From positions 62,001 to 126,000 of the forward strand of contig NZ_FOKA01000010.1 of NCBI RefSeq assembly GCF_900111925.1: 64,000 nt of DNA, in the 5' to 3' direction. Source of the stretch: Cellulomonas marina (GTDB taxonomy: Bacteria; Actinomycetota; Actinomycetes; Actinomycetales; Cellulomonadaceae). This document shows positions 3,914-21,574 of the stretch, one piece after another (position 1 is the stretch's first letter; each line of letters begins with the position of its first letter). Below the pieces are notes generated by a model, which searched no databases, was not told the DNA's origin, and saw only the letters and a program-made list of their open reading frames with translations. Made by a program: the position numbers and the translations under genes.

Positions 3914-6196
3914 GTGAGGGGGAACCGAGGGGTCACGGTCGCGGCGCTGGCCGTCGGCGCGGGCTTCGCCGTCCTCGTGCTCCTGCGGCCCCTGCCGGTG
4001 GCGGCGGGCACGCTCACCTCCTACCTCGTGCAGTGCACGACCGTGCTGGTGGCGGCGGTGCTCATGGCGGTGAAGGCGCGCGGGTCGGCCGGCGGGCTGC
4101 GGCGGGCGCGGCTGCTCATCAGCGTGTCGTTGCTGCTCGCGACGGCCGGGGGGGTCGCCGTGCTGGTGCTGCGGGCGACCGGGGCGGCGGTGCCGATCCC
4201 GTCACCGGCCGACGCGCTGCACTTCCTCTTCGTGCCGGTGTGCGTGGCGGGGCTGCTGTCCTACCCCGTGCGCGACGACGTGCCGGGATCGCGCACGCAG
4301 CTCGTGCTCGACGGGCTCGTCGCCACGACGGCGCTGTGGTTCGTCACGTGGACGGCCGCGCTGGCGCCGGCGCACGTGGGCGCCGGTCTGCCGCCCACCA
4401 CGGCCGCCACGATCCTCGCCTACCCCGCCTCGGACGCCTTCCTCGTCGCCGTGGCGGCGGGCGCCCTGCGGCGCGTCGCCGTCGAGGCCCGCCGCGAGGT
4501 CGGCCTGGCCGTCGCCGGCCTGCTGCTCTACGTGACCAGCGACGTCGCCTACACCGTCCTCGCCGCGCAGGGCCGCTACACCGCCTACAGCTGGGTCGGG
4601 GCGCTGGCCGAGGCCGGGCTCCTGCTGCTCGTCGTCGCGTTCGTCGGTAGCTGCTCCGGCGGGCGGTTGTCCCGGACGTGGGTGCGGGCCGCGGCGACGG
4701 TGCCGTGGTGCGGCGTCGCCGGTGCGCTGGTCTTCGCGGCAGCCGCCGCAGTGCTCGGGCACGACCTCGGCGGCATGTCGCTGGGGCTGCTCGTCGCGCT
4801 CATGGTGGCGCTGTGCCTGCGGCAGCTCGTCGCCACGCGGGACCGCGAGCTCGTCGCCCGGCGCCTGCGCGAGAGCCAGGCGCGGCTCGAGCACGACGCC
4901 CGGCACGACCACCTCACCGGGCTCGGCAACCTGGCGCACGCGCGGCGCGCGCTCGAGGTGGCGTGCGCGGCGGCCGACGACGGCACGATCGTGCTCCTGC
5001 TCGACCTCGACGGGTTCAAGCAGGTGAACGACAGCTTCGGGCACTCGACCGGGGACGCGCTGCTCGTCGCCGTGGCGGAGCGCCTGCGCGGAGCGGCACG
5101 GCCGGCGGACACCGTCTGCCGCACGGGCGGCGACGAGTTCCTCGTCGCCCTCACCGCGACCGGCGAGGAGGCCGCCCGGGCGGTGGCCGAGCACCTCCTG
5201 GCCGCGCTCGCCCGCCCGGTGGAGATCGGGGCCAGGACGGTCGTGCTCGGGGCGAGCATCGGTCTCGCCCCCGTCCGGGCCGGCCGGACGCCCGACGACG
5301 TGCTGCGCGACGCCGACCTGGCGATGTACCAGGCCAAGGCCGCCGGACGGGGGTCGGCGGTCGTCTTCCAGCCGTGGATGCACGAGCGGTCGCAGCGCGA
5401 GCTGTCCGTCACCACGGCGCTGCGGCGGGCGCTGCGCGAGGGCGGCCTCGAGCTCGACTACCAGCCGCTGGTGCGGCTGGAGACGGGCGAGGTCACCGGC
5501 GTCGAGGCGCTGCTGCGGTGGCGGCCGGCGGACGGACCGCCGATCCCTCCCGACGAGTTCATCGGCCTCGCCGAGGCGGCCGGCCTCATGCCCGAGGTCG
5601 ACGCGTGGGTGCTCGACCGCGCGTGCGCCGACCTGGCGGCGTGGCGGGCGGCGGGCGTGCCGCTCGCGCGCACGAGCGTCAACGTCTCGCGCCGCAGCCT
5701 GACCCCGGCGCTCCCGACGACCGTGCTGGCGGCCCTGGCGCGGCACGGGCTGCGCGGGGAGGACCTCTGCGTCGAGGTGACCGAGACGTCCGTGGCGCCC
5801 GACCCCGCCGCGGCGGCCACGGTGCTCCTGCAGCTCCGCGCGGTCGGCGTGCGCATCGCGCTCGACGACTTCGGCATCGGGCAGTCCTCCCTGTCGGAGC
5901 TGGCGACGCTGCCCGTCGACGTCGTCAAGCTCGACCGCTCGTTCCTCGCCCACGCCGGCGAGCGCGACGGCGACGCGCTGGTGACGTCCGTCGTCGCGCT
6001 GTGCACCGCGCTGGGGCTGGACGTCGTCGCCGAGGGCATCGAGGACCGCGCGACGGCCGCGCGGCTCGCGGCGGCGGGGTGCGCGTACGGCCAGGGGTTC
6101 GCCCTCGGGCGGCCGCAGCGGCCCGAGCAGGTGGTGGGCGTGATCGTGACCGGGGTCGGCGGCGTGCGCGGCAACGCGCTGACGGTGCCGCGCTGA
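3914..6196 (+). CDS. Membrane-bound GGDEF-EAL cyclic-di-GMP protein
   Basis: 760 residues from a GTG start. The first ~300 residues are strongly hydrophobic and form around eight membrane segments, a likely membrane sensor. A GGDEF domain follows, with the motif intact at residues 405-409 (TGGDEF), the first motif being DHLTGLGN. The EAL domain starts near residue 515 and keeps the signature E531-A532-L533 with LLRW, later NVSRRSL, the VEVTET glutamate and the DDFGIG loop. Both halves look catalytically competent, so the protein could make and/or degrade cyclic di-GMP; which dominates cannot be read from sequence. It stands alone, between a LuxR-like gene and a convergent hydrolase. A second GGDEF-EAL protein lies at 22-24 kb. 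Confidence 0.92.
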   Translation: MRGNRGVTVAALAVGAGFAVLVLLRPLPVAAGTLTSYLVQCTTVLVAAVLMAVKARGSAGGLRRARLLISVSLLLATAGGVAVLVLRATGAAVPIPSPADALHFLFVPVCVAGLLSYPVRDDVPGSRTQLVLDGLVATTALWFVTWTAALAPAHVGAGLPPTTAATILAYPASDAFLVAVAAGALRRVAVEARREVGLAVAGLLLYVTSDVAYTVLAAQGRYTAYSWVGALAEAGLLLLVVAFVGSCSGGRLSRTWVRAAATVPWCGVAGALVFAAAAAVLGHDLGGMSLGLLVALMVALCLRQLVATRDRELVARRLRESQARLEHDARHDHLTGLGNLAHARRALEVACAAADDGTIVLLLDLDGFKQVNDSFGHSTGDALLVAVAERLRGAARPADTVCRTGGDEFLVALTATGEEAARAVAEHLLAALARPVEIGARTVVLGASIGLAPVRAGRTPDDVLRDADLAMYQAKAAGRGSAVVFQPWMHERSQRELSVTTALRRALREGGLELDYQPLVRLETGEVTGVEALLRWRPADGPPIPPDEFIGLAEAAGLMPEVDAWVLDRACADLAAWRAAGVPLARTSVNVSRRSLTPALPTTVLAALARHGLRGEDLCVEVTETSVAPDPAAAATVLLQLRAVGVRIALDDFGIGQSSLSELATLPVDVVKLDRSFLAHAGERDGDALVTSVVALCTALGLDVVAEGIEDRATAARLAAAGCAYGQGFALGRPQRPEQVVGVIVTGVGGVRGNALTVPR

Positions 6197-7113: not shown

Positions 7114-10100
7114 ATGGCGGCACGGCGCTGGCGGGCGGTCGCACCGGTGGTGGCAGGAGCTCTGGCGTTCACGGGGCTCGGCACGGCGGTGCGCGTCCTG
7201 CAGGCGCCGCCCGCCCTCGCGGTGTTCGACGGGCACTACGGGCCCGGGGACGGCTCGCACGTGCTCCTCGTGCGGCTCGACGAGGCGCAGGCAGCGGCGG
7301 CCACCTCTGCCGCGGGGTCGGTGGCGGAGACGCCCGTGGATGCCGCGACGACCGCCGCGACCGGCGACCCGATCGCGGCGACGGGAGAGGCCGGTCGATC
7401 GACGGGCGAGCCGTCGGCGCGGCCACCCCTCGACGCGACGTTGCTGGCGGAAGCCCAGCGCGTCCTCGGGCCCGGCGGCGTGCTCGAGATGAACGGCGGC
7501 ACGGGCTTCTACGTCACGGCGGCGGGAGCCATGGCGGTGTCCGTCGGCGGCGACGGGCAGGCGCTCCCCGGCTCGCCCACCCCGTCCCCGACGACGGCCG
7601 CGACACCGACGACGGGCACGACGACCTCCGGCACGTCGGTGCCCGCCACGTCGGCCGAGCTCGTCGAGGCGTTGGAGGCCGTGGACGGCGTCGTCGCCGC
7701 GCAGGACTCCGGGTTCGGCGACGGCTCGCTCCTCGTCACGACCACGCTGACGCCCGACCGGCTGGCCGCCGTGCCGGGCGTCGGCGACGTCGAGACGTCC
7801 TCGACCGCCCACGTCTCGGCGCTGGACCCGCGCGACGACCCGTACTACGCCGCCTACGGCTGGCACCTGGAGAACACGGGCAGCAACGCGTACGGGCAGA
7901 CGGCCAGACCCGACGCGGACGTGGACGCGCCTCCGCTGTGGCCGGCGCTGCGCGGCGCCGGCACGGTCGTCGCCGTCCTCGACACGGGCTACGACACCGA
8001 CCACGAGGACCTGGGCCCCGCCGCGCTGTGGACGAACCCCGACGACCCCTCCTGCGACACCACGCGGGACGCGGATGGCAACGGGCTCGCGGGCGACTGC
8101 CACGGCTGGAACTTCTACGCCGGCTCGGCGGCGATCGACCAGGGACCGGGAGCGGGGGACCACGGCACCCAGGTCGCGAGCGTCGTCGCTGCTCAGGCCA
8201 ACGGCCGCGGGACCGTCGGGATCGCGCCGGAGACGCGCATCATGCCGCTGGTCATCGGTGCGGGCAGCACGGTGGACTTCGGGCTCGCCGCGAAGGCCAT
8301 CCGGTACGCGGTCGACCAGGGCGCCGACGTGGTCAACTGCAGCTTCGGCGGCGTCCCGACCGGCAGCTTCATGACGGCGCTCGTGGACGCCGTCGCCTAC
8401 GCCGAGCGTCGTGGCGTGCTCGTCGTGGCGGCCGCCGGCAACGACCGCGCGGACCGCGAGGTCGCGCCGACGTGGCCCGCCAGCTCGCCGAGCCCGACGG
8501 TCATCACCGTGGGTGCCACCACCGCGACCGACGTGCGGTCCGACTTCTCCGCGTGGGGTGCGGCCACCGTCGACCTGTCGGCCCCGGGCACGCTCCTCGT
8601 CGTCGCGTCCCCGTCCGGCGGGTACGTGGCGGCGTCGGGCACCTCCTTCTCGGCGCCGCTCGTCGCCGGTGCGGTCGCCCTCTACCGTGCCGCGCACCCG
8701 GACTGGACCGCGGCCCGGGTCAAGGAGCAGCTGCTGGCGGACGTCGACCGGGTGCCGGCGCTGGCGGGGCTGTCGGTGACGGGCGGGCGGCTGAGCCTGA
8801 CCGCGCTCGCCGCGTCGCTGCCGACGACCGCCGCACCCTCGACCGCGGTCCGGTTCGGGGCCATGACCGCCACGACGACCGCCGCCGGACAGACCGTCAT
8901 GGCTACGCCGCAGGTCGCCGTGACGACGAACGCCGGTGCCGGCGGCTACGAGGTGACCTTCGGGCTCGGCATGGCCGACGCCGGTGCGGTGTGGGCGGTG
9001 GCGGGGCAGGAGGTCACCCTCGACGGGCGGATGCGCACCACCGACGACGCCGGGACCGTGAGCTTCCCGCTCACGTCCGGTCCGACCGGTCTGGGCGCCG
9101 TGACGCTCGCGCCGCAGCTCCCCCTGTACGACGGGCGCTACGCCCTGACCGTCCAGGTGACCAAGGACGGAACCGCGCTGGCGCGGCCGGTGGCCGCACC
9201 CCTCGTGGTGGCGGTCGCCTCGAGCCCGACGAGCCCGACGAACCCGACCACGCCCCCCACGACCACGCCCCCCACGACCACGCCCGGTACGACCACGCCC
9301 GGTACGACCACGCCCGGTGCGACATCGCCTGGCGCGACGTCGCCCGCGCCGACGACGCCCGGTCCGACGACCCCGCGTACCGCGCCGGCGCCGACGACAC
9401 CCGGTTCCCAGCCGGTACCGGGTGGCACCACACCGCCCGGAGCGGGACCTGTCTCGCCTGGTCCGGGCGTGACGACGCCGGGCGCCACGGCACCTGCGTC
9501 GCCGCCGGCCACCTCGCCGGCGACCCCGCCCGCCACCGCACCGGGCACGCCACCCGTCGCGCCCGGTACCGTGCCGTCGACCCCGCCGGCCGGATCAGCA
9601 CCCGGGCCGGACTCCGTCACCTACCCGTCCGTCGGCGACTTCGCGGTCACCGCGATGACGCCGCGGCACGTGTCGACGGCCGGCGGCCAGACCGTCCAGC
9701 TCACCGGAACGGGCCTGCAGGGCGCGGCGGTGCGCGTGGGCGCGACCGGGAACGCCCGGGTGGTGGCGGCGACGAGCACGACGCTCGTGTTCGTCGCGCC
9801 GGCCCTCGTCGCCGGGACGTACGACGTGACCGTGCACGCGACCGGTCGGACGAGCGTGCTGTCCCCGGGGCTGACCTACGTGGTGCCGGGCACGACGCCC
9901 GGCACGACGCCACCGCCGACCACCGCCCCGGCTGCCCCTGGGACGCCGCCGGCGACGACCCCGGGCACCACGCCCGGCACGTCTCCGGGCACGTCTCCGG
10001 GCACGTCTCCGGGCACATCTCCGGGTACCTCGCCGGGTACCTCGCCGACGACGGCGCCGACCACGCCACCTTCCTCGTCGGCCACCCCGCCCGCGGACCG

Positions 10101-10209: not shown

Positions 10210-10240
10210 CGGCGTAGGAGATGACGAGAGCGCCCTCAAG

Positions 10241-10267
10241 GCGCTCGAGGCGCTCGAGGCGCTCGAG
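10241..10267. repeat. 9-bp tandem repeat (GCGCTCGAG)3
   Basis: Three perfect units of GCGCTCGAG, preceded by one degenerate unit (GCCCTCAAG at 10232-10240). It starts 31 bp after the subtilase stop. Each unit contains a CTCGAG palindrome. Confidence 0.85.
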
Positions 10268-10308
10268 GCCCCGGCCGGGTGCCGGACTCAGCGGTCGGCG
10301 GTGGTCCG

Positions 10309-10393
10309 TCGGTGCGGCGTCCAGCGGTACCAGAGGCCGGAGGGCGGCGTGTCGGCCACGACACGCCGCTCGGTCCGGCGTCTGCCGCAGCGA
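10309..10393. repeat. Structured intergenic repeat, copy A
   Basis: On the plus strand an outer left arm (CGGTGCGGCGT from 10310) pairs imperfectly with CTGCCGCAGCG ending at 10392. A strong hairpin lies inside: GCGGCGTGTCG (10344-10354), loop GCCA, CGACACGCCGC (10359-10369). The stem extends outward by a G.T and a G-C pair. Copy B at 21375-21459 has the same elements at identical offsets: left arm to hairpin 35 nt, left arm to right arm 72 nt. Hairpin pairs 10344/10369 and 10342/10371 are G-C here and C-G in copy B, and outer pair 10309/10393 is T-A here and C-G there. It could be a structured RNA or a small palindromic mobile repeat; strand is not determined. Confidence 0.7.
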
Positions 10394-10763
10394 GCGACCA
10401 CCGTCGGGGCTGTTGCTCCGTGGAAGGCGTCCGTGCGACGGCTCGAGACCGCCGCGTGGCGGGTCGGTGCGGAGCGACGGCACCGGAGCGTCTCCCGGCG
10501 GTGTCTCGCGCTGGACACGTCGTCCACGCCCCGCTCTCCGCACCAGGCCGCCACGGACGACAGCCGGTGCGCAGACCTCACCCACGACGGCCCTCGCGAC
10601 GCGGTACCGATCGATGTGGTCGGGCCAGGCGTCACCACGCCCGGCGGCGTCGAGGATCCGAGGGACGAAAGCGCCGTCGGCGCGGCTCCGAGGTCGTCGG
10701 GCGGCGCCGCGCGTCGCCGTACGGGAGGTGCAGGACATCTGACGACGACGAGGACCTCGCGCG

Positions 10764-11567
10764 TCAGCCGGTGAGGTGGGCGGTGCGCTCGACGACGGTC
10801 CTGGTCGGGAGGTCGGCGCTCGTGGTGGCGGTGCCCTGGACGTCGAGCCACGTGCTGGTGCCGGCGACGCGGTAGCGGCCGGTCCAGGTCGTCGTGCAGC
10901 GGACGGTCGCGGGGCCGGCGGTGGTGAAGGTGTGGGTGACGTCGGCGTGCGGCCAGGTGTGCCCAGGGCTGGTGGTGGTCAGGGGCGCGGTGCCGTCGCC
11001 GAAGGCCCAGGTCCACGAGGTCGGGGTCGCCTGCACCTCGACGGTCCGGCCGAGCAGCGTGGTGGTGAGCGTCGCGGGTGCGGGGTCGACGGTGAGGACC
11101 AGGGGCATGTTGACCAGCACGTCGCCCGTGGCGGGCTGGGTCGCGGCGGTGGGTGCGGGCAGCGGCAGTCGTCGGAAGTCGGCCTCGGTCAGCACGGGCA
11201 CCGCGGCCGCGTCGGCCCGGCAGAGCCAGCCGTTGTCGAGCGTCCACCGCCCGGTGGAGCCGGCGGGGCGGGACCAGGACGGCGGCACGACGGTCTCGTC
11301 GTCCGCGCAGGGCAGTGCCTGCGCCTGACGGCCTGGCGGGCACTGGGTCGGCTGGTCGAGCAGCGTTGCGCCCGCGCCGTAGCAGAGACCGCCGGGGTGC
11401 GTCTCGCGTTCCTGACTAGGGCTGGTCGCGACCGGATGCTGTCCGCCGCGCGCCGCTCGCCCTCCCCACACGTCGATTGACTCGCGTGCGGCTTTGCCGA
11501 AGACGTCCGAATCAACCGACGTCACTAGCAGCATTAGCACAACGCCCGTGAACACAGCACGACTCAC
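10764..11567 (-). CDS. Exported PKD-domain protein
   Basis: About 267 residues starting at a GTG (11567) that overlaps the upstream stop codon as GTGA, so translation is probably coupled to the lipoprotein gene. A single hydrophobic N-terminal segment (FTGVVLMLLVT) acts as signal or anchor. The C-terminal 100 residues contain a PKD-like beta-sandwich with the hallmark WTWAFGDGT and a following HTFTTAGPATV. The middle has several cysteines (GGLCYG, TQCPPG, LPCADD, WLCRAD). Bases around 11420-11580 are noticeably less GC-rich than the neighbourhood. PKD domains usually bind surface partners or carbohydrate; the specific role is unknown. Pairing with a DUF6318 lipoprotein suggests the two act together at the cell surface. 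Confidence 0.8.
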   Translation of the reverse strand: MSRAVFTGVVLMLLVTSVDSDVFGKAARESIDVWGGRAARGGQHPVATSPSQERETHPGGLCYGAGATLLDQPTQCPPGRQAQALPCADDETVVPPSWSRPAGSTGRWTLDNGWLCRADAAAVPVLTEADFRRLPLPAPTAATQPATGDVLVNMPLVLTVDPAPATLTTTLLGRTVEVQATPTSWTWAFGDGTAPLTTTSPGHTWPHADVTHTFTTAGPATVRCTTTWTGRYRVAGTSTWLDVQGTATTSADLPTRTVVERTAHLTG

Positions 11568-12157
11568 GCGCCGCCGTCCTTTGGCGTGTACTCGAGCACG
11601 ATCCACCGCCCGTCGACGACGTGGAGCACCGTGTCGACGCTCCCGACGTTGCTTTCGCCGGTGTCGACCTCGCGACCTTCTCCGTCCAGCGTGCGCCACG
11701 GCTGCTGCTCGATCTCGAGGTGCACGAGCGCCAGGCCGTCCTGGTTGACTCCCACGAGTTCGGCGCTCTCAACGACGAGTTGTGCCCCCTCGGTGGTGGT
11801 GCCGTCCTGCAGCATGGTGTCCATGACGGAGGCGCAGAAGACGCACTCCGGGTCGCTCATGGCGCGCCACTCGGTCAGGTCGCGGGACGCCGCGACGTAG
11901 CCGTACAGCTCGGTGAAGTACACGGCCGCGTCGACGGCGCCCTGCTCGGAGGGATCGGCGGGAGGCGCCGTGGGGGGCGCCGGAACCGCCGGCGGTGCCG
12001 CACCGGTCGGCGCCGCGGACACCTCGGCGGTCGGCGAGCCTGACGGGACCGTCGCGGCGACCGTTGCTGCCGGCGCCGTCGTCGTCGAGCAGCCCACCAG
12101 CACCGGCAGCGCCGCGAGCGCGCACCAGAGCCGCGTGCTGCGGCGGAGGACCCCCAT
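11564..12157 (-). CDS. DUF6318-type lipoprotein
   Basis: About 197 residues from the ATG at 12157, chosen because it places a standard lipoprotein signal directly at the N-terminus: MGVLRRSTRLW, hydrophobic core, lipobox LVGC with Cys23. A Thr/Pro/Ala-rich linker of about 45 residues follows, then a compact domain (AAVYFTELYGYVAAS..WRAMSDPECVFCASV..) matching what I know of DUF6318, with a Cys-x-x-Cys pair near its start. The fold resembles small NTF2/lumazine-like extracellular domains, but the function is not known. It is the first gene of a two-gene operon with the PKD protein (4-bp overlap GTGA at 11564-11567). Confidence 0.8.
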   Translation of the reverse strand: MGVLRRSTRLWCALAALPVLVGCSTTTAPAATVAATVPSGSPTAEVSAAPTGAAPPAVPAPPTAPPADPSEQGAVDAAVYFTELYGYVAASRDLTEWRAMSDPECVFCASVMDTMLQDGTTTEGAQLVVESAELVGVNQDGLALVHLEIEQQPWRTLDGEGREVDTGESNVGSVDTVLHVVDGRWIVLEYTPKDGGA

Positions 12158-12310
12158 ACCGCCGGAGGTTACCGACGCTCCCCGACCCACTCGCTGCGCC
12201 CTGTGGACGAATCACCCGGACGGCCCAGAACGGTCACCGCCACGCACTCCGAGGGGCTGTCACCGAGGTCGTGGCCGCCATCGCCGGAGTTTGCGCCCGC
12301 TCGTCGTGCC

Positions 12311-12487
12311 TCAGGTGCGCCGGCGCGGCGCCGTGCCGCCACCGCGCAGGAGCTCCAGCAGCCCACGCAGCAAGGCCACCCGCAGGACCAGCGTGCCGAC
12401 CGTCAGCAGCAGCGCCAGGGCGGCCCCGCCGAGAGCGATGACGACCAGCACCACCGCGAGGATCAGCACGCCGTCCATGCCGTGCAT
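12311..12487 (-). CDS. Small hydrophobic membrane protein (58 aa)
   Basis: A short frame from ATG at 12487 (alternative ATG at 12478) to TGA. The translation starts MHGMDGVLILAVVLVV and continues as one or two hydrophobic helices over residues 6-47. It ends in a basic tail (GTAPRRRT), giving a likely cytoplasmic C-terminus by the positive-inside rule. Amino-acid composition is far from the Arg/Pro-rich pattern of non-coding frames in this sequence, which is the main support. It stands alone between the lipoprotein gene and a hydrolase gene, about 150 bp from either. No function can be assigned. Confidence 0.6.
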   Translation of the reverse strand: MHGMDGVLILAVVLVVIALGGAALALLLTVGTLVLRVALLRGLLELLRGGGTAPRRRT

Positions 12488-12594
12488 CGTAGGACCGCGG
12501 CCGCGGAGCGGGTGTCCGGGTCACCGCGCCCGGTACGAAGGTTCTCCGACCTGCCGCGAGATACCACGACACGCCGGTGGACGCCCCGCATCCA

Positions 12595-12624
12595 TGGCAT
12601 CTCGGCGGAGGGTGCCGAGAGCCA
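12595..12624 (-). terminator. Hairpin downstream of hydrolase gene
   Basis: CTCGGC (12601-12606) pairs with GCCGAG (12614-12619) across a 7-nt loop, and the stem continues outward with TGGC pairing GCCA around a small bulge. It lies about 30 bp after the minus-strand hydrolase stop at 12657. Confidence 0.6.
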
Positions 12625-12656
12625 CCGGCCGACCGGCTGTCCCCCCCCGCGCGTCG

Positions 12657-13592
12657 TCAGGAGGCGAGGCCGGACGTCCCGCGCCAGAACGCGTCGAGGA
12701 CCGCTGCCGTGGACGGGGCGTCGTCCTCGTTCGGGCAATGGCCCGTGCCCGGCACGACGACGACCGGGGCGCCGAGCCGCGCCGCCATGGCGCGCTGCCA
12801 CTCCTGGGGCCACGCGTCGTCGTGCTCGCCGAAGACGACGGCGGCCGGGACGCCCGTGGCTGCGAGCTCCTCGGTCCGGTCGGTGAGGTCCGCGAGGTGG
12901 TCGATGGCGGCCAGGAGCTGGTCGTGGTGCGTCAGCTCGGCGCGCAGGCGCAGGAAGGCGTCGAACGGCGGCAGGTCGTCGTCGGGCAGGTGCGCACGCT
13001 GCGGGTTCGTCAGCCGCCAGAGGTCGACGTGCGGGTTGGCCAGCAGCATCTCGCGCTCCTCCGCCTTGCGGCCCTCCCAGCCGTGCGGGCCCGAGCACAG
13101 CAGCGTGACCGTGGCGAACAGCTCGGGGTGCGCGACCACCGCGGCTCGCGCGACGAGCCCGCCGAAACTGTGCCCGACGAGGTGCACCTGCGTCGCGCCG
13201 GTGCCCGATGCCGCCAGCACTGCCCGTGCGACCTCCGCGACGTCGTCGGCCAGGAGGTCCATCCCGTACCCGTCCTCGCCGTCCGGGCCGGTGGAGTCGC
13301 CCTGACCGCGCTGGGAGTACGTCCACGCGTCCCAGCCCAGCCGTGCGAGCTCCGGCAGCAGGAGGCGGTGGTCCTCCTTGGTCCCCGTGTAGCCCGGGAC
13401 GACGAGCACGACGCCGGCGGGCGGGCCGTCCGGAGCGTGGTGCAGCGCCGTCAGCGGGCCGACGCCCGCGGCGACGACGACGGCCTGCGTCCTGGGGTCG
13501 AGCGGCAGGTCGCCGAGCGGCATGCCTGGTAGGACGGCGGCAGGTCCGGCGGGGGGTGCGGCGTCGGACGTGGGGGAGAGGGCGTCGGGCAC
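12657..13592 (-). CDS. Alpha/beta hydrolase
   Basis: 311 residues from GTG. The fold signature is complete: oxyanion strand VVLVVPGYTGTKED, nucleophile elbow VGHSFGG with Ser142, a probable acid in VVFGEHDDAWPQ and the histidine in VPGTGHCPNED. The length and the dynamic cap region fit the broad lipase/esterase/peroxidase group; substrate is unknown. It reads in the same direction as the ROK regulator, whose stop lies only about 10 bp upstream of this start, so the two are probably co-transcribed. Confidence 0.85.
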   Translation of the reverse strand: MPDALSPTSDAAPPAGPAAVLPGMPLGDLPLDPRTQAVVVAAGVGPLTALHHAPDGPPAGVVLVVPGYTGTKEDHRLLLPELARLGWDAWTYSQRGQGDSTGPDGEDGYGMDLLADDVAEVARAVLAASGTGATQVHLVGHSFGGLVARAAVVAHPELFATVTLLCSGPHGWEGRKAEEREMLLANPHVDLWRLTNPQRAHLPDDDLPPFDAFLRLRAELTHHDQLLAAIDHLADLTDRTEELAATGVPAAVVFGEHDDAWPQEWQRAMAARLGAPVVVVPGTGHCPNEDDAPSTAAVLDAFWRGTSGLAS

Positions 13593-13601
13593 GTGCCGAC
13601 C

Positions 13602-14786
13602 CTAGATCAGCGCGTCGAGCGTCTCGCCGGCCAGGACGTGCTCGATCGCCATCGTGCTGGCGCCGAGCACGCCGGCGCGGCCACCCGTGCGGCTCGTGAC
13701 GATGCGCAGGTGCTGCGTCGCCAGGGGCAGCGACCGCCGGTAGACCACCTCGCGGATGCCGGCCAGCAGGTGCTCGCCGGCCTCGGCCAGGCTGCCGCCG
13801 ATGACGATGACCGACGGGTTGAGCATGCTCACGCACACGGCGAGCACCGACCCCAGCCGGCGCCCCGCCTCGCGGACGGCAGCGGTGGCCGTGAGGTCGC
13901 CCGCGCGGACCAGGGCGACGGCCTCCGTGCTCGTCGACGCCGCCAGGCCGTGCGCGGCCAGCTCGGCCGCCACGGCGCGGCCGCTGGCGACCGCCTCGAG
14001 GCACCCCGTGTTGCCGCAGCGGCACACGACCGCCGGACCGCCGGGCACGGCGACGTGCCCCAGGTCCCCCGCGGCGCCCTGCGCACCCCGCCGGATGCCG
14101 CCGTCGCTGATGATGCCGGCGCCGATGCCCGTGGCCACCTTGACGAACAGCAGGTGGTCGACGTCGCGGAACTCCGCAGCGTGCTCGCCCAGCGCCATGA
14201 CGTTCACGTCGTTGTCGACGAGCACGGGCACGGGCACGGGTGCCGGACCCAGCAGCTCCTGCAGCCGTCCGGCCACGTCGGCGCCGTCCCACCCCGGCAT
14301 GATCGGCGGGTTCGTCGGACGGCCCGTCTCGTGGTCCACGGGACCGGGCAGGCCGACCCCGACGCCGACGAGCTCGGACGCGGACCGGCCGGTGCGGGCC
14401 AGCAGGTCGTGGGCGACCCGCGCGACCAGGTCCAGCACGACCTCGGGGCCCTCGGCGATGGCGACGACCTCGAGGTGCTCGGCCAGGACCGTCGCGGCCA
14501 GGTCGGTGACGGCGACACGCGCGTGCGTCGCCCCCAGGTCGACCGCGAGGACGACGCGCGCCGCCGGGTTGAACGCGAAGGTGGCCGGCGGCCGCCCGCC
14601 GGTGGAGGCCGCCTCGCCCGTCGGCGCGACGAGACCGGAGGAGAGCAGCTGGTCGACGCGCATCGCGACGGTCGAGCGGGCCTGGCCGGACAGGGTGGCG
14701 AGCTCGGCGCGCGTGCGGGGTCGGCCGTCGCGCAGCAGCTGCAGCGTGGCGCTGAGGTCGCCGGCCCGCGGCGCGCTGGTGGCCAT
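13602..14786 (-). CDS. ROK-family transcriptional repressor
   Basis: 394 residues. I chose the ATG at 14786; the frame is open upstream but would run across the divergent ABC gene. Residues 1-75 form a winged helix (RTRAELATLSGQARSTVAMRV). The sugar-kinase-like ROK domain follows, with DLGATHARVAV, the GVGLPGPV loop, GIGAGIISDG and the zinc motif CRCGNTGCLE. Such proteins (NagC/XylR type) repress sugar operons and are released by sugar or sugar phosphate. Divergence from the sugar ABC transporter, and two palindromes in the 100-bp gap between them, make that operon the obvious target. Inducer unknown. Confidence 0.9.
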   Translation of the reverse strand: MATSAPRAGDLSATLQLLRDGRPRTRAELATLSGQARSTVAMRVDQLLSSGLVAPTGEAASTGGRPPATFAFNPAARVVLAVDLGATHARVAVTDLAATVLAEHLEVVAIAEGPEVVLDLVARVAHDLLARTGRSASELVGVGVGLPGPVDHETGRPTNPPIMPGWDGADVAGRLQELLGPAPVPVPVLVDNDVNVMALGEHAAEFRDVDHLLFVKVATGIGAGIISDGGIRRGAQGAAGDLGHVAVPGGPAVVCRCGNTGCLEAVASGRAVAAELAAHGLAASTSTEAVALVRAGDLTATAAVREAGRRLGSVLAVCVSMLNPSVIVIGGSLAEAGEHLLAGIREVVYRRSLPLATQHLRIVTSRTGGRAGVLGASTMAIEHVLAGETLDALI

Positions 14787-14839
14787 GGGCGCAGTCAAGC
14801 ACATCCGCCGATCGCGGCAGCGCTTCTCGTCGAGCGGGT

Positions 14840-14852
14840 AGCAACTTTTGCT
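14840..14852. promoter_or_regulatory. Candidate ROK operator
   Basis: AGCAACTTTTGCT is a perfect palindrome with 5-bp arms and a CTT centre, A+T-rich in a GC-rich context. It lies midway between the divergent ROK start (14786) and transporter start (14887) and touches the TTGACG at 14852. The location is ideal for a repressor acting on both genes. Confidence 0.6.
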
Positions 14853-14881
14853 TGACGTCTGGCAGAACCTCTGCCACGGTC
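14852..14881 (+). promoter_or_regulatory. Candidate promoter of sugar transport operon
   Basis: TTGACG (14852-14857) resembles a -35 box. A -10 position 17-18 nt downstream (around 14875-14881) would place the transcript start at or next to the ATG at 14887, so the message may be leaderless; no ribosome binding site is visible. A second perfect palindrome, GGCAGA-ACC-TCTGCC (14861-14875), fills the spacer and could be another operator half or a different regulator's site. Confidence 0.45.
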
Positions 14882-14886
14882 CTCGC

Positions 14887-16452
14887 ATGGTCGACGACGA
14901 CGGCCGGGGCGCCGAGGCCCCGGGACGCACCGCGCCCCCCACGACGGGTGAGCCGGTCCTCCTGCGGATGCGGGACATCGCCAAGCACTTCGCCGGCGTG
15001 AAGGCGCTCGACGGGGTGGACCTCGAGGTCCGTGCCGGCGAGGTGCACTGCCTCCTGGGGCAGAACGGCGCCGGCAAGTCCACGCTCATCAAGGTCCTCG
15101 CCGGCGCCCACCGGCCCACGCGCGGCACCGTCGAGTGGCAGGGGCAGGAGGTCACGCTCGCGTCGCCCGTGGCCGCGCTGGCTACCGGTGTCGCCACCAT
15201 GTACCAGGAGCTCGACGTCGTCGACGGCCTGACGGTCGCGGAGAACATCTGGCTCGGCCACGAGCTCGCCCGGGGCGGGATCACCCGGCGCCGGGAGCTG
15301 CACGCCCGGACCCGGGACATCCTGCGGCGGCTCGGTCACGGGGACATCCCGCCGGGCCGCGAGGTCGGGCACCTGTCGGCCGCCGGCAAGCAGGTCGTCA
15401 GCATGGGTCGCGCCCTGTCGCACGAGGCGAAGCTCATCGTCATGGACGAGCCCTCGGCGGTCCTGGACTCCGAGGAGGTCGCCAACCTCTTCCGCGTGGT
15501 CCGCGAGCTGACGGCTGCCGGCGTCGCGGTCGTCTACATCTCCCACCGGCTCGAGGAGATCCGCCAGATCGGTGACCGCATCACGGTCCTCAAGGACGGG
15601 CGGACCGTCGCGACCGGCCTGCCCGTCGCCACGACCCCCACGTCCGAGCTCATCCGGCTCATGACCGGCCGCGCCGTGGAGCAGGTGTTCCCGCCGCGCC
15701 GGAGCGTCGCCCCCGACGTCGCGCCGCTGCTCGAGGTCGAGGGCCTCGGGCTGCGCGGCGTCTTCTCCGACGTCTCCTTCTCCGTCCGGCCGGGGGAGGT
15801 CGTCGGGCTCGCGGGCCTCGTCGGGTCTGGCCGCTCCGAGATCCTCGAGACGGTCTACGGCGCGCGGAGGGCGACCGCCGGACGGGTCCGCGTGGGTGGC
15901 AAGGAGCTCCGTCCGGGCTCGGTCCCCGCGGCGGTCGCGAGCGGCATCGGCCTCGCGCCGGAGGAGCGCAAGAGCCAGGGTCTGCTGCTCGACGAGCCCA
16001 TCTACCGCAACGTCACCCTGTCGACGTTCGGCCGCTTCGCCACGGGTCCGGTGCTCGACGAGCGTGCCGAGCGGCGCACCGCCCGCGAGCAGATCGACGC
16101 CCTCGAGCTGCGTCCGGCCGACCCGGACCGGGTCACCCGGACGCTGTCCGGCGGCAACCAGCAGAAGATCATGCTCGCCCGCTGGCTCGTGCACGGCTGC
16201 GAGGTCCTGCTGCTCGACGAGCCCACCCGCGGCGTCGACGTCGGCGCGCGCGCCGAGATCTACGCCCTCGTCGACGCCCTCGCCGCCCGCGGCGCCGCGG
16301 TCGTCGTCGTGTCCAGCGAGATCGACGAGGTGCTCGGCCTGGCCGACCGCGTCCTCGTCGTGGCGGAGGGCCGCGTCCTGCACAGCGGCCCCGCCGACCA
16401 GATCGACGAGCACCGCGTGCTCGACCTCGTCATGGAAGGAAGTGCCGCGTGA
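14887..16452 (+). CDS. Sugar ABC transporter ATP-binding protein (CUT2 type)
   Basis: 521 residues with two fused ABC ATPase domains as in RbsA/XylG/MglA. The first domain has Walker A GQNGAGKST, a degenerate signature (HLSAAGKQ) and Walker B LIVMDEPSAVLD. The second has a degenerate P-loop (GLVGSGRSE), a full signature LSGGNQQK and LLLDEPTRGVDVG. This asymmetry is normal for the family. It energises uptake of a monosaccharide or small polyol through the downstream permease and binding protein. The ATG at 14887 is preferred over an in-frame TTG further upstream that lies in the operator. Its stop overlaps the permease start by 4 bp. Confidence 0.93.
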   Translation: MVDDDGRGAEAPGRTAPPTTGEPVLLRMRDIAKHFAGVKALDGVDLEVRAGEVHCLLGQNGAGKSTLIKVLAGAHRPTRGTVEWQGQEVTLASPVAALATGVATMYQELDVVDGLTVAENIWLGHELARGGITRRRELHARTRDILRRLGHGDIPPGREVGHLSAAGKQVVSMGRALSHEAKLIVMDEPSAVLDSEEVANLFRVVRELTAAGVAVVYISHRLEEIRQIGDRITVLKDGRTVATGLPVATTPTSELIRLMTGRAVEQVFPPRRSVAPDVAPLLEVEGLGLRGVFSDVSFSVRPGEVVGLAGLVGSGRSEILETVYGARRATAGRVRVGGKELRPGSVPAAVASGIGLAPEERKSQGLLLDEPIYRNVTLSTFGRFATGPVLDERAERRTAREQIDALELRPADPDRVTRTLSGGNQQKIMLARWLVHGCEVLLLDEPTRGVDVGARAEIYALVDALAARGAAVVVVSSEIDEVLGLADRVLVVAEGRVLHSGPADQIDEHRVLDLVMEGSAA

Positions 16453-17537
16453 GCGAGTCCTCGTCCCTGCCGCCCTCGCTGGCGACGGCCGGCAGCGTCC
16501 CGCCCGACCCCGACCGCCCGACCCCGCTGCAGCGCGGCGGGGCGACGACCGGCGCTGCGCCCGCCACGCGCTCGCGCAACCCGCTCGCCGGTGGCGCCGG
16601 CCGCATGGTCGGGCTGGTCATCGCCCTGGTCGTGCTCTGCGCCGTCGGCGCGCTCACCGGGGGCGAGCGGTTCGCCAGCCTCGACAACGCGATGACGATC
16701 CTGCGGCAGGCCGCGATCTACGGCGTGCTGGCCGTCGGGATGACCTTCGTCATCACCGGTGGCGGGATCGACCTGTCGGTCGGGTCCGTGCTGGGCCTGG
16801 CCTCGATCTGGGCGAGCACCGTCGCGACCCAGACGATGGCGGAGAGCAGCGGCTGGTTCGTCATGGTCTTCACGGCCCTGGCCGTCGGGGCCGTGTGCGG
16901 GCTGGTCAACGGCGTCCTCATCGCCTACGGCCGGGTCGTGGCGTTCATCGCGACGCTCGCGATGCTCGTCGGTGCCCGCGGGCTGGCGGAGATCATCGCG
17001 AACCGGCAGACGCAGATCGTCGAGGTGGACGGCTTCCTCGACGTGTTCCGGTCCAGCATCCTCGGCATCTCGGTGTCCATCTGGATCTTCGCCGCCGTGG
17101 CGGTCGCGGGCTGGTTCCTGCTCAACCGCACGACGTTCGGTCGCCGAACCCTGGCCGTCGGCGGCAACCCCGAGGCCGCCCGGCTCGCGGGCATCCGGGT
17201 CAAGCGGCACACGATGTACCTCTACGTCCTGGCCGGCGTCACCGCGGGCATCGCGGCCGTGCTCATGCTCGCCCGGACGACGTCGGGCTCCTCGACGCAC
17301 GGCTCGCTCTACGAGCTGGACGCCATCGCGGCCGTCGTCGTCGGCGGGACCCTGCTGGCCGGGGGCCGCGGCACGATCGTCGGGACCGTCCTGGGCGTCC
17401 TCATCTTCACGACCCTCACGAACGTGTTCGTCATCAACAACCTCTCGACGTCGGCACAGTCCGTCGCGAAGGGCCTGATCATCGTCGTCGCCGTGCTGCT
17501 GCAGCAGCAGTTCGCGGCCCGCGCCCGGCGCACCTGA
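16449..17537 (+). CDS. Sugar ABC transporter permease (RbsC family)
   Basis: 362 residues, GTG start overlapping the ATPase stop (GTGA). After a hydrophilic N-terminal tail of about 45 residues there are eight to ten membrane segments, with the family motifs GMTFVITGGGIDLSVGSVLG and, near the C-terminus, VVVGGTLLAGGRG. These match branched-chain/monosaccharide CUT2 permeases. It should form a homodimeric channel with the double ATPase encoded upstream. Confidence 0.93.
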   Translation: MSESSSLPPSLATAGSVPPDPDRPTPLQRGGATTGAAPATRSRNPLAGGAGRMVGLVIALVVLCAVGALTGGERFASLDNAMTILRQAAIYGVLAVGMTFVITGGGIDLSVGSVLGLASIWASTVATQTMAESSGWFVMVFTALAVGAVCGLVNGVLIAYGRVVAFIATLAMLVGARGLAEIIANRQTQIVEVDGFLDVFRSSILGISVSIWIFAAVAVAGWFLLNRTTFGRRTLAVGGNPEAARLAGIRVKRHTMYLYVLAGVTAGIAAVLMLARTTSGSSTHGSLYELDAIAAVVVGGTLLAGGRGTIVGTVLGVLIFTTLTNVFVINNLSTSAQSVAKGLIIVVAVLLQQQFAARARRT

Positions 17538-17647
17538 CGCTCCGCCGCCGCGCCCTCCGCCGGCGTCCCCTGCTCGTCGTCCTCGGACGTCGACCCGCCC
17601 GTCGCACCCGCTCGTCGTACCCGCACACCCTGTCAAGGAGGACACTC

Positions 17648-18712
17648 ATGTCTGCTCGCACCCCGCTCCGCCGCCGCTGGTTCACCACGGCCGGCGCCCT
17701 CGCCGCCGGCGCGCTGCTCGTCGCCGGCTGCACGTCCAACACGCCGGTCGAGGAGGACGAGGGCTCGGCCGCCGCCGCGCCCGCCCCCGTCGCCGCGACG
17801 GGCAACGACGAGACCGGCGACACGGTCGTCATCGGGTTCTCGGCCCCCGCCGCCGACCACGGCTGGATGGGCGCCATCACGGCCGCCGCCCGCGCCGAGG
17901 CCGAGCGCTACGAGGACGTCGAGCTCCGCGTCGCCGAGGGCACCAACGACGTCAACCTCCAGATCAGCCAGGTCGAGCAGTTCATCAACGACGGCGTCGA
18001 CGCGATCGTGCTCCTGCCCTTCGACGGCGCCGCGCTCACCGAGGTCGCGACGCAGGCGATGGAGGCCGGCATCACGGTCATCAACGTCGACCGCGAGTTC
18101 TCCAGCCCGTTCGCGGCCCGCGCCACCGTGCTGGGCGACAACTACGGCATGGGCGTCTCCGCCGGCACGTACATCTGCGAGCAGCTCGGCGACCAGCCCG
18201 ACGCCGTCGTCGCCGAGATCGCGGGCATCGACTCGCTGCCGCTGACGCAGGACCGCAGCCAGGGCTTCGCCGACGCGCTGGAGGACTGCGGGCTCGAGGT
18301 GAGCAACCGCGTCGCCGCCGACTTCACCGTCCAGGGCGGCCAGGCCGCCGCGGCGAACCTGCTGCAGGCGGCGCCGCAGATCGACGCCCTCTGGAACCAC
18401 GACGACGACCAGGGCGTGGGCGTGATGGCCGCCATCGAGGAGGCGGGCCGCGACGAGTTCATCATGGTCGGCGGCGCCGGCTCGCAGCAGGTGATGGAGG
18501 CCATCCAGGCGGGCGACTCCGTCCTCAAGGCGACGGTCGTGTACCCCTCGACGCAGGCCGCCGACGGCATCCGGCTGGCCCGCCTCGCGGTCCAGGGCAA
18601 GGCTCTGGGTGACCTCGTCGAGGTCGAGATCCCGCGGACGATCCAGCTCTACGCGCCCGTCGTGACGGCGGAGAACGTCGACAAGTACCTGCCGACCGCG
18701 TTCGAGTCCTGA
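17648..18712 (+). CDS. Sugar-binding lipoprotein of CUT2 ABC transporter
   Basis: 354 residues. The ATG at 17648 has a strong ribosome binding site (AAGGAGG, 7 nt upstream) and starts a lipoprotein signal ending in LVAGC with Cys28. The mature part has the periplasmic-binding-protein type I fold of RbsB/XylF: IGFSAPAADHGWMGAI at the first strand, FINDGVDAIVLLPF, and a C-terminal lobe with LWNHDDDQGVGVMAAIEEAG. The ligand is probably a monosaccharide or polyol. It completes a full importer with the two genes before it. Confidence 0.92.
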   Translation: MSARTPLRRRWFTTAGALAAGALLVAGCTSNTPVEEDEGSAAAAPAPVAATGNDETGDTVVIGFSAPAADHGWMGAITAAARAEAERYEDVELRVAEGTNDVNLQISQVEQFINDGVDAIVLLPFDGAALTEVATQAMEAGITVINVDREFSSPFAARATVLGDNYGMGVSAGTYICEQLGDQPDAVVAEIAGIDSLPLTQDRSQGFADALEDCGLEVSNRVAADFTVQGGQAAAANLLQAAPQIDALWNHDDDQGVGVMAAIEEAGRDEFIMVGGAGSQQVMEAIQAGDSVLKATVVYPSTQAADGIRLARLAVQGKALGDLVEVEIPRTIQLYAPVVTAENVDKYLPTAFES

Positions 18713-18751
18713 CGTGCCGCAGGAGCGGCCGCACGCACGAGGGGAGCAGGG

Positions 18752-19975
18752 ATGAGCGAGACCGGGCCGGGGACGACCCTCGGCGTCGGGATGGTGGGCC
18801 ACGCCTTCATGGGGGCCGCCCACTCCCAGGCGTGGCGCGTGGCGCCGCGGTTCTTCGACCTGCCGCTGACGCCGCGGATGGTCGTCGTCGCGGGGCGGCG
18901 GGCCGAGGCCACGCGCGCCGCGGCCGAGCGGCTGGGCTGGGACGGGTGGGAGACGGACTGGCGCAAGCTGCTCGTCCGCGACGACGTGCAGCTCGTCGAC
19001 GTCTGCACGCCGGGCGACACCCACGCCGAGATCGCCATCGCGGCGCTCGAGGCAGGCAAGCACGTCCTGTGCGAGAAGCCGCTGGCCAACACGGTGGCGG
19101 AGGCCGAGCAGATGGCGGCCGCCGCCCGACGGGCCGCCGAGCACGGGGTCCTGGCGATGGTCGGGTTCACCTACCGCCGCGTGCCGGCGGTGGCCCTGGC
19201 ACGGCAGCTCGTCGCCGAAGGGCGGATCGGGGCCGTGCGGCAGGTGCGTGCGCAGTACCTGCAGGACTGGCTGGCCGACCCGTCGTCGCCGCTGTCGTGG
19301 CGGCTCGACAAGCAGAAGGCCGGATCGGGCGCGCTGGGCGACATCGGCGCGCACGCCGTCGACCTCGCGCAGTTCATCACGGGCGAGCGGCTCACCGGCG
19401 TCAGCGCCCTGCTGGAGACGTTCGTCCACGAGCGGCCGGTGGCGGCCGAGGGCGGGTCGGCGCTGCACGGGGTCGGCGGCCAGGGCACGGGGCCGGTGAC
19501 CGTCGACGACGCCGCCGTGTTCCTCGCCCGGCTCGACGGCGGCGGCATCGCCACCTTCGAAGCCACGCGCATGGCGTGGGGCCGCAAGAACGCGATCCGG
19601 CTGGAGATCAACGGCACCGCGGGTTCGATCGCCTTCGACTTCGAGGACATGAACGTGCTGCACCTGTACGAGGCGTCCGACGAGGGCCGCACGGCCGGGT
19701 TCCGGCGCATCTACGTCACCGAGCCCGACCACCCGTACGTCGGCGCGTGGTGGCCGGCGGGGCACGGGCTCGGGTACGAGCACGGGTTCGTGCACCAGGC
19801 GGTCGACCTCGTGCGGGCGCTCGCGGACGGGACGCAGCCGGAGCCGTCGTTCGACGACGGCCTGCAGGTGCAGCGGGTGCTGGACGCCGTGGAGCGCAGC
19901 GCGGCGGCCGGCAGCACGTGGACCGCCATCGAGGACGACGCGTCGGGCACGCCCGACGGGGACAGGAGCGAGTGA
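18752..19975 (+). CDS. Gfo/Idh/MocA family oxidoreductase
   Basis: 407 residues. The Rossmann nucleotide-binding motif at the N-terminus is slightly altered ([14 protein letters not shown]), followed by [14 protein letters not shown] and the diagnostic [11 protein letters not shown]. The C-terminal alpha/beta domain contains [15 protein letters not shown], which supplies the usual catalytic histidine. These enzymes oxidise or reduce a hydroxyl on a sugar or cyclitol with NAD(P). Located after the sugar importer and one base before the isomerase, it likely performs the first step of catabolism of the imported compound (for example a C3-oxidised sugar or inositol); the substrate is not deducible. 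Confidence 0.9.
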
Positions 19976-19976
19976 C

Positions 19977-20981
19977 GTGGCACGACCGGTGACGCTGTTC
20001 ACGGGGCAGTGGGCGGACCTGCCGTTCGAGGAGGTCTGCCGGCTGGCCTCGGGGTGGGGCTACGACGGGCTCGAGGTGGCCTGCTGGGGGGACCACCTCG
20101 ACGTCTGGCGGGGGGCTGAGGACGACGCGTACATCCAGGGCAAGCTCGACGTCCTGGAGAAGCACGGCCTGCAGCTCTTCGCGATCTCCAACCACCTCAA
20201 AGGTCAGGCGGTCTGCGACGACCCCATCGACCAGCGGCACCGGGACATGCTCCCGGACGTCGTGTGGGGCGACGGTGACCCCGAGGGCGTCCGGCAGCGG
20301 GCGGCCGAGGAGATGAAGCTGACCGCCCGCACGGCGGCGCGGCTCGGCGTGAAGACGGTCGTCGGCTTCACGGGCTCGTCGATCTGGAAGTACGTGGCGA
20401 TGTTCCCGCCTGCCTCGGAGGAGCTCGTCGCCGCGGGGTACCGGGACTTCGCCGACCGCTGGAACCCCATCCTCGACGTGTTCGACGAGGTCGGGGTCCG
20501 GTTCGCCCACGAGGTCCACCCGAGCGAGATCGCCTACGACTACTGGACGACCGTCGCCGCGCTGGAGGCCATCGGGCACCGGGAGGCGTTCGGCCTCAAC
20601 TGGGACCCCAGCCACTTCGTGTGGCAGGACCTCGACCCGGTCGGGTTCCTCTGGGACTTCAAGGACCGGATCTACCACGTGGACTGCAAGGACGCGAAGC
20701 GCCGGGTTGGCAACGGCCGCAACGGCCGGATGGGCTCGCACCTGCCCTGGGCGGACCCGCGGCGCGGCTGGGACTTCGTCTCCACCGGCCACGGCGACGT
20801 GCCGTGGGAGGACTGCTTCCGGATGCTCAACACCATCGGGTACGACGGCCCCATCTCCGTGGAGTGGGAGGACGCCGGCATGGACCGGCTCGTCGGGGCA
20901 CCGGAGGCCCTGGCCTTCGTCCGGCGGCTGGCCTTCGACCCGCCCACCGCGTCCTTCGACGCGGCGTTCAGCACCCGCTGA
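19977..20981 (+). CDS. Sugar phosphate isomerase/epimerase (TIM barrel)
   Basis: 334 residues, GTG start one base after the upstream stop. The xylose-isomerase-like/AP-endonuclease-2 barrel is evident: [62 protein letters not shown] and [11 protein letters not shown]. These contribute the Glu/Asp/His/Glu metal ligands of the family. Together with the Gfo/Idh/MocA protein it forms a common catabolic pair for oxidised sugars. A terminator hairpin follows directly. Confidence 0.9.
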
Positions 20982-20991
20982 CCGTCCCGGT

Positions 20992-21023
20992 CCGGCCGGC
21001 CGTGCCCCGCACGCGCCGGCCGG
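20992..21023 (+). terminator. Hairpin ending the sugar operon
   Basis: CCGGCCGGC (20992-21000) pairs perfectly with GCCGGCCGG (21015-21023). The loop can extend the stem with CGTG/CACG around a CCCCG tip. It lies 10 bp after the isomerase stop and just before the isomerase remnant. Confidence 0.75.
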
Positions 21024-21062
21024 CCCGGGCTGCACGACCGCACCATCGCACGACGCACCACC

Positions 21063-21335
21063 GTGTTCTGGGCCGCCGACGCCGGCGTCGACGTCGCGGC
21101 GCTGATCGAGGAGCACGGCGACCGCATCGAGCTGCTGCACATCAAGGACGGCGACCTCAACGGTGACGCCCGCGGCATCCCGTCCGACGTCGGCGAGGGC
21201 GAGATCGACTGGGCGCCGATCCTGCAGGCGGCTCAAGGCAAGGTGAAGCTGTACGTGGTCGAGCGCGACGGGGCCCCGGCCGACGCCGAGTTCGCCCGCG
21301 ACAGCCTCGAGTTCCTCACCTGCTTCACCTACTGA
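21063..21335 (+). pseudogene. C-terminal remnant of a second sugar isomerase/epimerase
   Basis: Only about 90 residues: FWAADAGVDVAALIEEHGDR, then ELLHIKDGDLNGDARG and a terminal VERDGAPADAEF..DSLEFL. This is recognisably the last third of a TIM-barrel sugar-phosphate isomerase/epimerase (family length about 270-330). The upstream part of the barrel is absent; the 80 bp before it hold only the neighbour's terminator. The reading frame to the stop is intact, so decay may be recent, or a short product could be made from the GTG at 21063. It is not homologous in detail to the intact isomerase upstream, so it is not a simple tandem duplicate. Confidence 0.75.
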
Positions 21336-21374
21336 TGGCCGTGACGCCGCACCGGCCCGCACGTGAGTGGCGGG

Positions 21375-21459
21375 CCGGTGCGGCGTACGGAGGACCGGAG
21401 GTCCGGGCACCGGCGTGTCGGCGAGGACACGCCGGTGCGGGGTGAGCACGCCGCACCGG
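21375..21459. repeat. Structured intergenic repeat, copy B
   Basis: The outer arms CCGGTGCGGCGT (21375-21386) and ACGCCGCACCGG (21448-21459) are perfectly complementary. Inside are a small hairpin GGACC-gga-GGTCC (21392-21404) and a 13-bp hairpin GCACCGGCGTGTC (21407-21419), loop GGCGAG, GACACGCCGGTGC (21426-21438). The whole could fold as a three-way junction. Spacing of every conserved block equals that of copy A near 10.3 kb. It lies between the isomerase remnant and the SemiSWEET gene. Confidence 0.75.
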
Positions 21460-21574
21460 CGGACCACTTGATCGGGTGACGCCGGGAGCCGATGGGACGT
21501 GGTGGGTCCGACCGGCCCACGCACCACCCGAATCCCGGGCACCACCGTGCCCCGTCCAGGAACGAGCTCGTCCC

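Follow-up and report, generated by a model that had tools for sequence, protein, structure and literature searches.

Dispersed palindromic repeats in Cellulomonas marina and a putative AbiEi/Vsr-fold nuclease gene bracketed by their copies

Background

Palindromes dispersed between bacterial genes are known from the REPtron, in which a repetitive extragenic palindrome (REP) or REPIN is combined with a mostly single-copy, non-mobile nuclease gene (RAYT = TnpA_REP) beside copies of the repeat; repeat and enzyme coevolve, and copies also occur inside genes, as described in the sections of the three papers used here (PMC8266576; PMC3116915; PMC3733652). In the same sections, enzyme-linked REP systems rest on HUH-type (RAYT) enzymes (PMC8266576; PMC3116915; PMC3733652), no enzyme is known for some REP families (PMC3733652), and the spread of REP-like palindromes is still treated as an open question (PMC8266576). 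In the present study, we analyzed a 64,000-nucleotide stretch of the Cellulomonas marina genome (contig NZ_FOKA01000010.1, positions 62,001 to 126,000; hereafter the window), in which an earlier note had pointed out two copies (A and B) of a structured element. These copies are members of a dispersed repeat family of about 102 bp (family 1) in the source genome (G000; 3.96 Mb in 33 contigs, with the window on contig C31), and two members of the family bracket a putative nuclease gene elsewhere in this genome.

The arrangement resembles the REPtron, as far as it is described in those sections, in its dispersed palindromes, their lineage-specific sequences and the nuclease gene between two copies. 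The layout of a resident nuclease gene bracketed by a dispersed family was found in three genomes of the genus (G000, G023 and G031), with a different enzyme, namely a DUF559 protein of the Vsr/homing-endonuclease fold and not an HUH/Y1 transposase. Also unlike the REPtron, the elements are about 100 bp long, have two nested stems and lack a conserved GTAG (none was seen beside the palindrome in alignments with flanks of 25 nt (A1) or 20 nt (A6)), and each of the three genomes has 10-16 copies, not hundreds. A Y1 transposase as the mover was dropped, since there were no PF01797 (Y1/HUH transposase) matches in G000, the control search being positive in 5 of 14 genomes. Lacking the GTAG mark and having an unrelated enzyme, the system is not a REPtron member; it would work like a REPtron if the proposed role of the nuclease holds.

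Integron attC sites have GTTRRRY / RYYYAAC core boxes and stand in cassette arrays. This candidate was dropped because the boxes were missing by eye from the arms in alignments A2 and A6 (no integrase search was made); the copies are also scattered among ordinary genes. Rickettsia palindromic elements (RPE) are palindromes of about the present size, some of them in frame within coding genes, as is one copy here within a helicase gene; we know of no bracketed nuclease gene for them. RPE are named in one of the above papers (PMC3733652), and the CGTC-tagged REPs and terminal inverted repeats (TIR) treated in the section used are likewise palindromic or terminal-repeat families (PMC3733652); the present families differ from the CGTC-tagged REPs in that no CGTC tag was noticed by eye and in that a candidate enzyme is present.

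Results and Discussion

Family 1 in the genome of C. marina

The covariance model R1, which was built from alignment A2 of 13 oriented copies, detected 16 sites in G000 at E<=0.02. The 13 training copies were recovered by construction, and the three sites outside the training set were C14:164860 (48 bits), C27:142243 (35 bits; known before R1 and excluded from alignment A2 as short) and C13:83154 (31 bits). A further match at E 0.4, which sits within a called gene of L085, was taken as chance. The search for more copies that the earlier note had proposed was therefore successful in the source genome; in related genomes family 1 was not found, and other families were found there (see below).

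Copy A (window positions 10300..10402, + strand; C31:72300-72402, 74.7 bits) consists of outer arms enclosing the left arm CGGTGCGGCG, a spacer of about 24 nt, a hairpin, a spacer of about 15 nt and the right arm, and the pattern scan placed its central hairpin GGCGTGTC-GGCCAC-GACACGCC at 10346..10367 (+ strand). Copy B (21366..21468, + strand; C31:83366-83468, 72.6 bits) has the central hairpin GGCGTGTC-GGCGAG-GACACGCC at 21412..21433 (+ strand, same scan); both copies are training members in alignment A2. The layout and places given in the earlier note were correct, except that the arms start one base later, at 10310 and 21376. It had overlooked the outer extension of the arms (GGTGGCG... 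and its complement), a third copy in tandem with copy A (copy A2; 10455..10555, + strand; C31:72455-72555, 66.8 bits, a training member), whose hairpin is degenerate, and a separate perfect hairpin with a 17-bp stem (21344..21386, + strand, read from the sequence), whose 3' arm includes the left arm of copy B and which looks like the leftover right arm of a lost neighbouring element. Further tandem pairs are present at C12:94810/94914 and C28:54387/54556.

The recurrence of the hairpin is real: the window holds two occurrences of the pattern GGCGTGTC-N{4,8}-GACACGCC, and 100 shuffles gave none. With a gap of 3-9 allowed, the whole genome has six exact copies, every one with a 6-nt loop (reversed control pattern, 0), and all six are enclosed by the arms CGGTGCGG[AC]G...C[TG]CCGCACCG, the right arm of copy A carrying changes. 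A generic inverted-repeat scan of the window was not above shuffles because the family-1 arms hold mismatches. An exact-pattern scan of a wider collection of genome contigs, which may omit the source genome itself, gave no family-1 match, and Rfam 15 gave no match in the window, with only matches far under gathering scores around copies A and B. Short imperfect tandem repeats were also noticed at 10000-10060 (unit of about 12 nt, near the 3' end of a subtilase gene) and at 10240-10275 (10-nt GGCGCTCGAG-like unit, directly before copy A).

Structure and covariation of family 1

As a single strand, every copy can be folded so that a central hairpin of 9-11 bp, at a fixed, asymmetric position, is surrounded by an outer stem, for which the consensus is GGTGGCGnnTCGGTGCGGMG with its complement; in most copies the hairpin lies about 34 nt from the start of one arm and 24 from that of the other, so that the copies can be oriented. 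Among the 13 copies, identity is 90.5% in the inner arms, 87.4% in the hairpin stem and 64% in the outer arm. The two fixed-length spacers are 36% and 39% identical, which is near random (32% and 34% expected from composition), in agreement with the conserved blocks and differing intervening sequence described from two copies. At columns 7-9 of the outer arms, three copies have TCC and the remainder mostly CG[GC], and the changes between these two types are matched on the opposite side except in copy B, whose outermost arms mismatch each other at two alignment pairs (7/101 and 8/100), and in a few others.

The compensatory changes that the earlier note saw in the hairpin were borne out in part. 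In alignment A2, 91.5% of the cells are paired (87.6 in shuffles), 19 cells are changed on both sides (9.6 in shuffles) and the covariation score is 0.196 (0.127 in shuffles; 0.02-0.08 in slid controls), none of these values being reached by any of 500 shuffles. The number of pairs with two-sided change (6 vs 4.5; reached by 68/500 shuffles) and that of further pair types (16 vs 15.1; 182/500) were, however, not above shuffles; covariation is thus present by score and changed cells and absent by counts of pairs or pair types. Two of the three extra hairpin pairs of the earlier note (columns 46/73 and 47/72) hold in 16 of the 22 cells from the 11 copies besides A and B (shuffle P = 0.003), and with them the hairpin score is 0.277 vs 0.166.

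The non-Watson-Crick cells of the inner stems comprise eight G.T, no A.C and four others in 12 copies (12, 0 and 7 when the C18 copy, set aside as its centre is a direct repeat, is counted), suggesting the folding of one strand, whether in the form of RNA or of single-stranded DNA. In the outermost stem, this G.T bias is absent (5 G.T, 9 A.C, 11 other). As a separate observation, the two central GGCGTGTC units are arranged as a direct and not as an inverted repeat at C18:80322 and C14:164860, inexactly so at C13:83154, and direct GGCGTGTC repeats are also found inside the elements of L193 and L207, two of the nuclease loci described below.

Genomic placement and restriction to one genome

Family-1 copies are mostly intergenic, and gene calls confirmed that the sites of copies A and B are gene-free. 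The neighbours by Pfam include a RecQ-type helicase, a UDG family protein, an amino-acid permease and a HAD hydrolase among others, and the orientation relative to adjacent genes is mixed, with both directions represented. One copy lies within the open reading frame of a helicase gene that also encodes DUF3418; the linker in which it is situated is different in relatives. Near an element behind a recQ-type gene, a tandem 16-nt unit GGTCAGGACGGCCGCC was seen (L037, around 4190-4240).

R1 had no match at E<=0.01 (best, 0.0102) in 79 of the 80 other genus genomes, G096 being the one left out, and none with stricter filters in 57 relatives (35 of which overlap the 79). In the gap between the UDG and GDSL genes, the sole clear orthologous gap compared, the relatives have no element: the gap spans about 30 nt in G081, about 80 nt in G086 and, with the element, about 245 nt in G000. 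This is not a clean empty site because the remainder of the gap also differs. A target-site duplication, as left by a miniature inverted-repeat transposable element of a DDE transposon, was not clear by eye in the flanks, where no systematic search was made.

Some lone palindromes were noticed in other members of the genus. G082, which has no family 1, has one with family-1-like arms CGTCGGTGCGGAG/CTCCGCACCGACG and no GGCGTGTC hairpin (L132, G082:C1:1994150-1994253). Isolated GGCGTGTC-N6-GACACGCC-like palindromes without arms (L060, L061, L092; L097, L098, L075) recur at apparently matching gene neighbourhoods in several members, with a gap of 6 commonest among exact matches; they may serve as operators or be conserved hairpins. 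In G010, several GACACGCC copies stand in close series behind a GGCGTGTC hairpin (L087, G010:C11), possibly as a local repeat array.

A second family in related genomes

Upstream of a gene which we take to be metG, G000 has a family-1 element, and G031, G002 and G023 have palindromes with different arms. The corresponding pattern (family 2), CTTGTGAC-N{24,54}-GTCACAAG, was found at 14 places in G023, 10 in G031, 2 in G079 and 1 in G002, and in none of the other 77 of 81 genus genomes (reversed control, 0-1 per genome). After the removal of one G023 duplicate, the 27 places gave 26 distinct copies, in every one of which the 8-mers are 45-47 nt apart. Since the copies were picked by exact 8-mers, information comes only from positions beyond these 8-mers. 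In the outer arms there, matched changes were found between species: at column 17/87 of alignment A6, 12 of the 13 G023 copies have G-C and the remaining one T-A, and C-G is invariant among the 13 copies from G031, G079 and G002.

Most family 2 copies (22 of 26) lie within about 120 nt behind the 3' end of a gene, 10 of the 26 at 19-35 nt, and four have no called gene upstream within 400 nt. Some stand at matching places in two species, namely before a presumably nrdG-like gene (L144/L147) and in the metG gap (L178/L179). A profile scan with A6 detected five copies at E<=1e-8 in 0.8 Mb of G002, four of them outside the profile and one overlapping the end of a called gene, and none in about 155 kb of G000.

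A nuclease gene bracketed by copies of the palindromes

Between metG and an isochorismatase-family gene of G000, a gene on the minus strand (L083:3817-4722) stands between two family-1 elements. Its product joins an AbiEi-like N-terminal part to a nuclease domain of the Vsr/homing-endonuclease fold (DUF559); AbiEi_4 and DUF559 scored narrowly over the Pfam cut-offs and MTES_1575 below its own. Among the structural matches listed, the predicted folds of the two halves correspond to AbiEi antitoxin (PDB 6y8q) and to Vsr-type nucleases (I-Bth0305I, 3r3p; Vsr, 1cw0), and the predicted fold together with a conserved acidic/His set places the protein with the Vsr/homing-endonuclease type. In G023 (L178) and G031 (L104/L179), a related gene is flanked by two elements of its own family and dialect, and bracketing by two same-family copies was thus found in three genus genomes. 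The proteins of G031, G002, G023 and G074 have 37-41% identity to that of G000, with DUF559 above and AbiEi_4 below the cut-off in G023 and G031. The gene is present in 5 of the 30 metG loci examined (80 of 81 genomes matched for metG). A recently inserted DUF559 cassette was also considered, a reading weakened because related genes occupy the same position in relatives.

A protein-alignment search of named genomes gave at least 594 stretches, and 22 loci (L189-L210) among the matches listed were from Cellulomonas, Pengzhenrongella, Georgenia, Oceanitalea, Kineococcus, Herbiconiux, Demequina, Microbacterium, Yonghaparkia, Williamsia, Acidimicrobiales and others, including one Rhodopseudomonas. 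Several of these have 5' and 3' palindromes with common arms that differ per genome, such as CTGCGCACAGGT in Oceanitalea, CGCCACCGG in Demequina lignilytica, CTCCTGCA in Microbacterium testaceum and TCTGGAGGACAT in an Acidimicrobiales metagenome-assembled genome.

We examined this bracketing with a paired-arm test, designed after the first view of the palindromes, which takes the longest word (length k) found as an inverted repeat on the 5' and the 3' side alike, the spacing being the same to within 2. Among all 27 loci (5 from the genus and the 22 named), k>=8 was obtained in 10 and k>=7 in 13, compared with 3/702 and 10/702 for cross-paired flanks, 0/1080 and 5/1080 for shuffles, and 0/217 and 7/217 for other genes from the loci retrieved in this study, most of them within the genus. 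The 22 named loci alone gave k>=8 in 8 (Fisher P = 1.4e-9) and k>=7 in 9 (P = 6.5e-7), and 14 had no paired arms of at least 8 nt; of the 27, nine had no score, and another five reached no more than k = 6, a value expected by chance. Before this test, the gene starts of L189-L210 were reset by one rule (open reading frame length nearest 870 nt), which made L206 positive, and flank sizes were altered as well. Without the spacing rule, k>=8 was obtained in 9/27 loci vs 6/702 cross-pairs and 4/540 shuffles.

Over the nuclease flanks as a whole, the inner motif GGCGTGTC showed no clear enrichment (11 occurrences in 14.7 kb, of which 7 lie outside G000, vs 37 in 100.7 kb of control flanks), and its presence inside the elements of L193, L194 and L207 was not used as evidence. 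Relatives of the nuclease were absent from viral contigs (406 pattern stretches) and phages, and one was found in plasmids; the Microbacterium arm pattern was not found in viral contigs, nor an element in plasmids. In the open-access literature (subscription papers and preprints being outside the scope), we found no link of the AbiEi-DUF559/Vsr fusion, the name MTES_1575 included, with palindromic repeats.

Origin of the palindromes

The best reading of these results is that of REP/REPtron-like mobile palindromes in which an unrelated nuclease replaces the HUH transposase, and we give a probability of roughly 55% to the window copies being a REP-like palindromic mobile repeat dispersed in trans by the bracketed nuclease. 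We infer the action of the nuclease on the elements, the strand used and the way in which copies arise: the nuclease would recognise the arms or folded hairpin of its own family and nick or cut at these sites, whereby elements would be moved or copied in trans, and arms and enzyme would coevolve, leading to lineage-specific arm dialects. The absence of paired palindromes from about half of the homologues, a cutting of the elements that is deduced and not seen, and a transposase search that covered one family (Y1/HUH) would suit palindromes mobilised by another enzyme, an undetected transposase or recombinase, with the DUF559 gene as a frequent passenger or insertion target; the recurrence of bracketing across several genera with different arms, together with its absence at k>=8 from the other genes tested, makes this quite improbable.

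The earlier note had offered a structured RNA or a palindromic mobile repeat. The mobile repeat fits better because the copies are many, dispersed and in either orientation, one lies in the helicase frame, the family was found in 1 of the 80 genus genomes searched and relatives lack the element in the UDG-GDSL gap; the data do not divide RNA from single-stranded DNA folding. Palindromes acting as transcript terminators or 3'-end stabilisers, with arms alike by copying or selection and the nuclease gene merely between two insulating terminators, would account for the frequent position of family 2 behind stop codons, and RNA folding would agree with the covariation score and with the presence of G.T but not A.C mismatches in the inner stems. 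We nevertheless consider this explanation unlikely, given the mixed orientation in G000, the copy inside a coding frame and the family 2 copies behind no called gene; moreover, terminator function requires no species-wide common arm sequence. Double-stranded binding sites of a protein with a chromosome-structuring or regulatory role, its specificity drifting from one species to the next, would agree with stems more conserved than loops, with the exact direct GGCGTGTC repeats in two copies (and the inexact one in a third) and with GGCGTGTC-N6-GACACGCC standing alone in other genus members. Such sites seem very improbable, since the G.T mismatches without A.C in the inner stems indicate one-strand folding and relatives lack the element in the single clear gap compared.

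Conclusions

If the bracketed nuclease does disperse the palindromes, REP-like repeats would have arisen a second time, independently of HUH enzymes. We suggest tentatively, at somewhat under even odds, that an AbiEi-Vsr-fold nuclease and the palindromes of about 45-110 bp that it disperses make up a new class, mobile or domesticated, across Actinobacteria, with a private, coevolving arm dialect in each lineage. This would be a new and directly testable enzyme-repeat pair in Actinobacteria, in which a different nuclease is tied to dispersed palindromes. The pairing may account for many of the GC-rich intergenic hairpins in these genomes, and it suggests a function for DUF559/AbiEi-type proteins without an assigned one.
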